A DNA stretch of 64,000 bases from positions 186,001 through 250,000 of the forward strand of contig DASXVO010000035.1 of NCBI GenBank assembly GCA_036504215.1. Direction: 5' to 3'. Shown here piece after piece: positions 45,139-47,397 of this stretch. The notes under the pieces were generated by a model that saw only the letters and a program-made list of their open reading frames with translations, searched no databases and had not been told where the DNA came from. Numbering within the stretch: the first letter of the stretch is position 1; every line of letters begins with the position of its first letter. Both the position numbers and the translations under genes were made by a program. This DNA comes from Vicinamibacterales bacterium (GTDB lineage Bacteria; Acidobacteriota; Vicinamibacteria; Vicinamibacterales; Fen-181).

Positions 45139-45291
45139 TCAACGTTTCGGTGCTGGCGGGGTTCTCTGACGTCGAGACTCGACGTCGCACTGAGGGCTGG
45201 TTCAGGTCGGCACACCCAGGCGCGGCAGGATCACCGTCTGGAGGAGCAACCAGACCGCCAGGAACGCGATTGGCCAGAGGTAGTCCATCAT
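45139..45291 (-). CDS. Candidate selenoprotein: tiny one-helix membrane protein with in-frame TGA
   Basis: Read as usual, this is a 29-residue peptide: M-M-D-Y-L, one transmembrane helix, then L-P-R-L-G-V-P-T and TGA (45202-45204). Read through, the frame gives Sec30-T-S-P-Q-C-D-V-E and ends at TGA 45139-45141, for 50 residues. Sec and the next Cys would be spaced UX4C. I recall small one-helix proteins ending L-P-x-L-G-V-P-T followed by CX4C in other bacteria, which would make this a Sec-for-Cys homologue; that memory is unverified. A hairpin after the TGA fits a SECIS. Its ATGs overlap the stop of the DUF302 gene. Confidence 0.6.
45168..45186 (-). promoter_or_regulatory. SECIS-like hairpin after the in-frame TGA
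   Basis: GACGTCGAG-T-CTCGACGTC is a perfect inverted repeat starting 16 bases after the TGA at 45202-45204. Folded with an eight-base stem and GUC loop (or seven-base stem and AGUCU loop), the loop G and U are 24-25 bases past the TGA. Bacterial SECIS elements have GU in a small apical loop 16-37 bases from the UGA; E. coli fdhF has loop AGGUCU. No T run follows, which argues against a plain terminator. Confidence 0.55.
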
Positions 45292-46674: not shown

Positions 46675-47397
46675 GTGCTCTTCCGACTTGGATCGCTCGA
46701 GATCACCAGTTTCGGTGCGATGGTCGCGCTCGGGGCCGCACTGGGGCTGCTGCTCATGCGGCACGAACTGAAACGCGCACGGATCGACTCGGCGATGGGG
46801 ATCGACGCCGCGCTCGTGGGAGTCATCGGCGGTCTGGTTGGCGCCAAGCTTCTCTACGTTGCCGAGCATCTCGCCGAACCGTTGTCCTCCACACTGCTGA
46901 GTCGGGGAGGAATGAGCTGGTTCGGCGGGCTGACGGGAGGCATCCTGGCGGGGGGCGCGATGATTCTGTGGCGGCGGCTTCCACTGATGGGGATGCTGGC
47001 CGCGGCCGCTCCCGCGCTCACGCTCGGTCAGGCGATCGGGCGCATCGGCTGCTTCCTCGTGGGTGACGATTACGGCCGTCCGACGAGCCTGCCTTGGGGC
47101 ATCGCGTTCCCGGACGGTCTGCCGCCCACGCTCGACCGCGTGCATCCGACGCAACTCTACGAAGCCGCCCTGCTGATCCCGATGACGTGGCTGCTCGTCT
47201 CGCTGCGCCGGCGCGGCGCGAGTGATCGAGCGGTGTTCGGCGGGTACCTCGTCATCGCCGGCGGCACGCGCTTCCTCATCGAACTGGTGCGGGTGAACGT
47301 CGTCGTCTTTGCGGGGACGACGACGGCGCAGCTGTTCTCGATTGGGATCGTGCTGATGGGCGGGTGGTTGCTGATGGGGCGCCGGCCGAACTCCTGA
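46675..47397 (+). CDS. Lgt-like protein (prolipoprotein diacylglyceryl transferase family)
   Basis: A 240-residue integral membrane protein of the Lgt family. It shows G-G-M-S-W-F-G-G, G-R-I-G-C-F-L-V-G-D-D-Y-G-R, V-H-P-T-Q-L-Y-E and R-F-L-I-E-L-V-R. Against E. coli Lgt as I recall it, His103 is Phe, Asn146 is Cys and Glu151 is Asp, while Arg143, Gly154, Arg239 and Glu243 are kept. It may be a paralogue with changed activity. GTG 46675 is used here, but ATT at 46666 gives a first residue block Y-P-V-L-F-R closer to the family and sits nearer to GGGGGTAGG. Confidence 0.75.
   Translation: MLFRLGSLEITSFGAMVALGAALGLLLMRHELKRARIDSAMGIDAALVGVIGGLVGAKLLYVAEHLAEPLSSTLLSRGGMSWFGGLTGGILAGGAMILWRRLPLMGMLAAAAPALTLGQAIGRIGCFLVGDDYGRPTSLPWGIAFPDGLPPTLDRVHPTQLYEAALLIPMTWLLVSLRRRGASDRAVFGGYLVIAGGTRFLIELVRVNVVVFAGTTTAQLFSIGIVLMGGWLLMGRRPNS

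Follow-up and report, generated by a model that had tools for sequence, protein, structure and literature searches.

The window, the 64,000-nucleotide stretch of DNA analysed here, carries on its minus strand a short frame that runs from 45291 to 45139 and reads, when translated through an internal TGA, MMDYLWPIAFLAVWLLLQTVILPRLGVPT-U-TSPQC-DVESRRQRTPPAPKR-stop. Before the TGA, located at 45204-45202, there is an open reading frame of 28 codons counted from 45288 that encodes one helix, and after it 20 codons stay open, TSPQCDVESRRQRTPPAPKR, up to the gene's own stop at 45141-45139, which is again a TGA. The Cys codon at 45189-45187 forms with the internal TGA a UX4C pair. Translation bears out the original prediction of a TGA followed by an open frame reading TSPQC, with UX4C just after a helix. 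The prediction had also described a 29-codon frame ending in T-TGA, which was correct in the frame and in the TGA, the start being probably one codon further on. Since relatives mostly use as start the second Met, at 45288, the in-frame ATG at 45291-45289 is regarded as an alternative start and the likely product has 49 residues, encoded by 49 codons at 45288-45142, minus strand, in a frame through the TGA that relatives keep. Upstream on the same strand lies a DUF302 gene (45692-45288; PF03625, E=4.4e-25), whose stop overlaps the start of the short gene in an ATGA junction, as had been noted. Elsewhere in the window an open reading frame at 46675-47397 resembles, as judged by eye, prolipoprotein diacylglyceryl transferase (Lgt).

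The helix that had been expected just before the TGA is predicted by two methods, together with the start of the LPRLGVPT segment, at 45282-45221 of the minus strand. Hydropathy gives a best 17-residue value of 2.07, and AlphaFold, run on 17 sequences, places a helix at residues 4-23 with a pLDDT of about 88 over the first 20 residues and about 60 in the unstructured tail. Both models agree on one helix followed by a flexible tail. In 97 of 99 relatives the tail, on the C-terminal side of the helix, carries more positive charge than the N-terminal flank; hence, by the positive-inside rule, the predicted topology is N-out and C-in and the Sec should face the cytoplasm.

Relatives and the codon at the Sec position

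A search with the 49-residue query returned relatives from the host's own genus, family and order, and every good match contained one internal TGA. One genome of each species and the host's class were then scanned, which gave 99 distinct genes; the scan pattern, W[LVI]LPR[LM]GV[PQ], does not select for TGA but biases the sampled motif. The codon at the Sec position is TGA in 98 of these genes and TGC in one, and the true stops downstream are mixed (48 TGA, 29 TAA and 21 TAG). The relatives, most of them from MAGs, span eight named phyla or groups: Acidobacteriota, Planctomycetota, Deltaproteobacteria/Desulfuromonadales, Myxococcota, Rokubacteria, Armatimonadetes, Zixibacteria and Spirochaetes. 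A read-through frame arising by chance is excluded because the conservation extends across phyla, with 98 of the 99 relatives keeping the TGA and continuing beyond it.

Within the motif, as biased by the scan pattern, L, P, G and V at positions -8, -7, -4 and -3 are invariant among the 99 genes and T at -1 is nearly so. A conserved Cys at +5 (UX4C) is present in 74 of the 99, and UX5C in two more. In the remaining 23 no Cys occurs within eight residues after Sec, and the tail reads typically UAVPxPRRSAR; examples are L030, L031, L095 and L147-L159, whose own hairpin lies about one codon closer to the TGA. This Sec-only subgroup, which the original prediction had not anticipated, may differ in function.

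A second search used a profile in which the Sec residue is replaced by X. It detected the family in 165 of the 395 genomes sampled (about 40%) from the phylum of Desulfuromusa kysingii, a cultured species that itself carries the gene (L118), and each of the matches listed there has the TGA inside; in the phylum of the planctomycete L100 it detected the family in 39 of 392 genomes. In the scan of the class, all confident matches contain the TGA, and profile matches devoid of an internal stop were weak (E 0.001-0.007) and were taken as chance.

The planctomycete members allow the exchange of Sec and Cys to be followed. From the 39 genomes, 29 carry the TGA and 10 have no stop, and all 10 stop-free members encode Cys where the others have Sec, in most cases within a CX4C. 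The selB gene is present in none of the 10 Cys genomes versus 26 of the 29 TGA genomes (Fisher p=4.5e-7, a value that overstates independence as the members are related); it was not found in the other three TGA genomes. One Cys genome, G193, was checked for tRNA-Sec and is also devoid of it. The sequences around this Cys vary (GVPTCMGGSC, GIRTCMSGAC, GMKTCLSGFC, GIPTCMSGGC and GVKTCLFQCC), which suggests more than one Sec/Cys change in Planctomycetota. In G193 the member, L100, has TGC and retains a perfect SECIS-like hairpin in a genome with neither selB nor tRNA-Sec, as if its change from Sec to Cys were recent. The Planctomycetota contrast was used because in the host's class selB is too widespread, being present in 141 of 193 genomes, for family presence or absence against selB to be more than a weak test there. 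In that class selB occurs in 31 of the 35 family genomes, and tRNA-Sec in three of the four that remain. The fourth, G133, has a TGA member (L131/L155), but its assembly, 97% complete, yielded no selB and no tRNA-Sec; the contig may be misbinned or the gene dead.

The homologue search proposed with the original prediction returned, then, relatives that do not end at the TGA; 74 of the 99 carry the Cys at +5, and the 10 planctomycete genomes have a Cys in place of Sec. The assignment of TGA as Sec at the first-Cys position is supported by the 98 TGA relatives and by the Cys forms in selB-less genomes. The small CX4C proteins that the prediction had mentioned do exist, although as a minority form, Sec being the usual state.

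The hairpin and the decoding machinery

The candidate bacterial SECIS hairpin, GACGTCGA-GTC-TCGACGTC, occupies 45186-45168 of the minus strand. It is a perfect inverted repeat of 8 bp with the loop GUC that begins at the 16th base past the TGA, as had been described, and the spacing from the TGA to the apical loop is 23 nt. The published bSECIS model (PMC13188914) has a loop of 3-9 nt with a G in the first two bases, a stem of 4-16 bp, a spacing of 16-37 nt and at most -7.5 kcal/mol. In its strict form, with unbulged stems, the model is matched by the hairpin of the host gene and, in all, by those of 69 of 98 family genes; the other 29 family hairpins miss this bulge-free form. Among the controls, ordinary TGA codons that end long open frames of these loci, it is matched in 94 of 859. 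In the passing family hairpins the loop sits at a few fixed places. The region after the TGA is more stable than its synonymous recodings, made with local codon usage, in nearly all genes (mean z -1.5). The relatives also display compensatory changes, since sliding the partner by one base reduces the pairing, clearly in groups A and B and more weakly in C and D. In a planctomycete group the Cys codon is either TGC or TGT, and in 19 of 19 genes its silent last base corresponds to the middle base of the Arg or His codon five residues on, a correspondence that is hard to explain except as a base pair. Rfam contains no family matching at the locus, where it returned sub-threshold chance matches only.

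It had been proposed to look in the genome for selA, selB, selC and selD, and all four were found in the host genome (G000; 5.9 Mb, completeness rated 100%). The tRNA-Sec (selC) has the anticodon TCA. The selB match scores 359 bits, above the cut-off, and is located on the contig that holds the window, some 36 kb beyond the window's end; selD scores 349 bits and selA 526 bits. The host SelD is itself a selenoprotein by its sequence, with an in-frame TGA at the active-site position, ...MVSCSGUASKL... (L017, G000:C47:5642-6571). On this evidence the host possesses, besides the short gene, one or more genes of a familiar selenoprotein type (selD, SGU).

Neighbouring genes and proposed role

A DUF302 gene adjoins the family gene on the same strand, on either side, in 25 of 146 distinct loci, and a thioredoxin gene in seven of them. 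Single neighbours include CoA-disulfide reductase/rhodanese, NrfD, DsrE, OsmC, ArsR, MerR, ABC, HlyD and RND components, and the neighbourhood differs between phyla. The DUF302 partners keep two cysteines, in GACNPP and LLPCN, and DUF302 genes are reported from sox gene clusters (PMC5037610, PMC11034169). Since the neighbours comprise DUF302, thioredoxin, NrfD, rhodanese, DsrE and OsmC, in a list that gives occurrences as found rather than relative to a genome-wide background, and since DUF302 is reported from sox clusters, the role is probably in thiol or sulfane-sulfur chemistry. A hemerythrin-like gene is convergent to the selenoprotein gene in L026, L028, L055 and L056 (PF01814 confirmed in L056).

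Gene identity, decoding of the TGA as Sec and the SECIS are supported by the comparison of sequences, and the probability that the gene truly encodes a selenoprotein is put at about 95%. Its family was not found in the libraries searched. The single N-terminal transmembrane helix would anchor a short cytoplasmic tail whose first residues past the conserved LPRLGVPT would be Sec-X4-Cys, and SelB would read the hairpin just downstream so that Sec is inserted at the UGA. The selenol and the nearby Cys would most likely form a selenenylsulfide, cycling with a membrane partner that may be the same-operon DUF302 protein, with its two cysteines, or thioredoxin. The likely task would be thiol or sulfane-sulfur redox chemistry, or detoxification. 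Partner and reaction are proposed tentatively, at somewhat under even odds, and a redox pair would account for only part of the family, as the no-Cys subgroup has no resolving Cys.

The same architecture, a single helix with Sec in a short flexible cytoplasmic tail, would also suit a selenol-bearing subunit for the assembly or targeting of a membrane complex, an analogue of SELENOK/SELENOS with little catalysis of its own, for which the invariant LP-x-x-GV segment could be the docking motif. It is rather unlikely that this is the case, as no single partner is conserved across phyla and even DUF302 is adjacent in those 25 loci only. The tail could instead bind metals or metalloids, Sec and Cys acting as a chelator tied to efflux rather than in thiol-redox catalysis. 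Some family genes stand beside efflux components (RND or HlyD/OEP) and regulators (ArsR or MerR), which is consistent with such a chelator, but about one quarter of the 99 members have no second Cys and, in the loci scanned, genes of thiol/sulfur redox functions are neighbours at least as often, which makes it unlikely. That the TGA is an ordinary stop, with the hairpin serving as an mRNA stability or coupling element, is very improbable: a one-helix peptide of 28-29 residues is plausible as a product on its own, and may be made in selenium shortage, but the position is practically always TGA while the true stops are mixed, the frame past it is conserved, and Cys substitutes for the TGA where selB is missing. 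Pyrrolysine was set aside, being encoded by TAG.

Comparison with known selenoproteins

No NCBIfam (June 2026) or Pfam model above cut-off matches the family, and no matching entry was seen in the 2026 catalogue of 119 prokaryotic selenoprotein families, supplementary tables apart (PMC13188914). No prior description of the motif was found in the open-licence literature, and an earlier mention elsewhere is possible; a text match to 'GvpTU' was a gas-vesicle gene name and not the motif. The gene resembles catalogued bacterial bSECIS selenoproteins such as formate dehydrogenase and SelD in its UGA with a bSECIS-fitting hairpin directly downstream, in the presence of selABCD and in the Cys variants of Sec-less organisms. 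It differs from the families described in the main text of the catalogue (PMC13188914) in its own sequence, its one-helix architecture and its LPRLGVPT-U motif. According to the same text, TsoB is a rhodanese/DsbD-like selenoprotein with UxxxxU, a two-Sec rhodanese-like fusion. The four-residue spacing of the pair and, by TsoB's name, the sulfur-redox context are shared with it, but NCBIfam and Pfam revealed no rhodanese-like domain in the family protein.

A likeness to eukaryotic selenoproteins resides in architecture alone, and a relation in sequence is not claimed. SELENOK and SELENOS are small eukaryotic proteins with one transmembrane helix and Sec in a flexible cytosolic tail. In them Sec is at the far C-terminus, whereas here it stands beside the helix, and the SECIS is here bacterial and inside the coding region.

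The family, common in several phyla, enlarges the bacterial selenoproteome with a type other than the usual thioredoxin-fold enzymes. It was probably overlooked because it is so short and its Cys versions are rare. There is about an even chance that it constitutes an undescribed, ancient and very common family of minimal membrane-bound selenol redox relays for sulfane sulfur or thiols, missed on those two accounts. It points to a class of selenoproteins that current methods would tend to miss because the frame preceding the TGA is short and Cys homologues are few; the authors of deep-Sep state that a scarcity of Cys homologues limits their method (PMC12013277). In genomes of Acidobacteriota, Planctomycetota and Desulfuromonadales the gene may have escaped annotation or have been truncated at the TGA. 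Moreover, the family gives a handle on DUF302, a function-unassigned family that recurs in sulfur-oxidation gene clusters. In one locus (L078) two family members lie about 2 kb apart, with a DUF302 gene beside the first.
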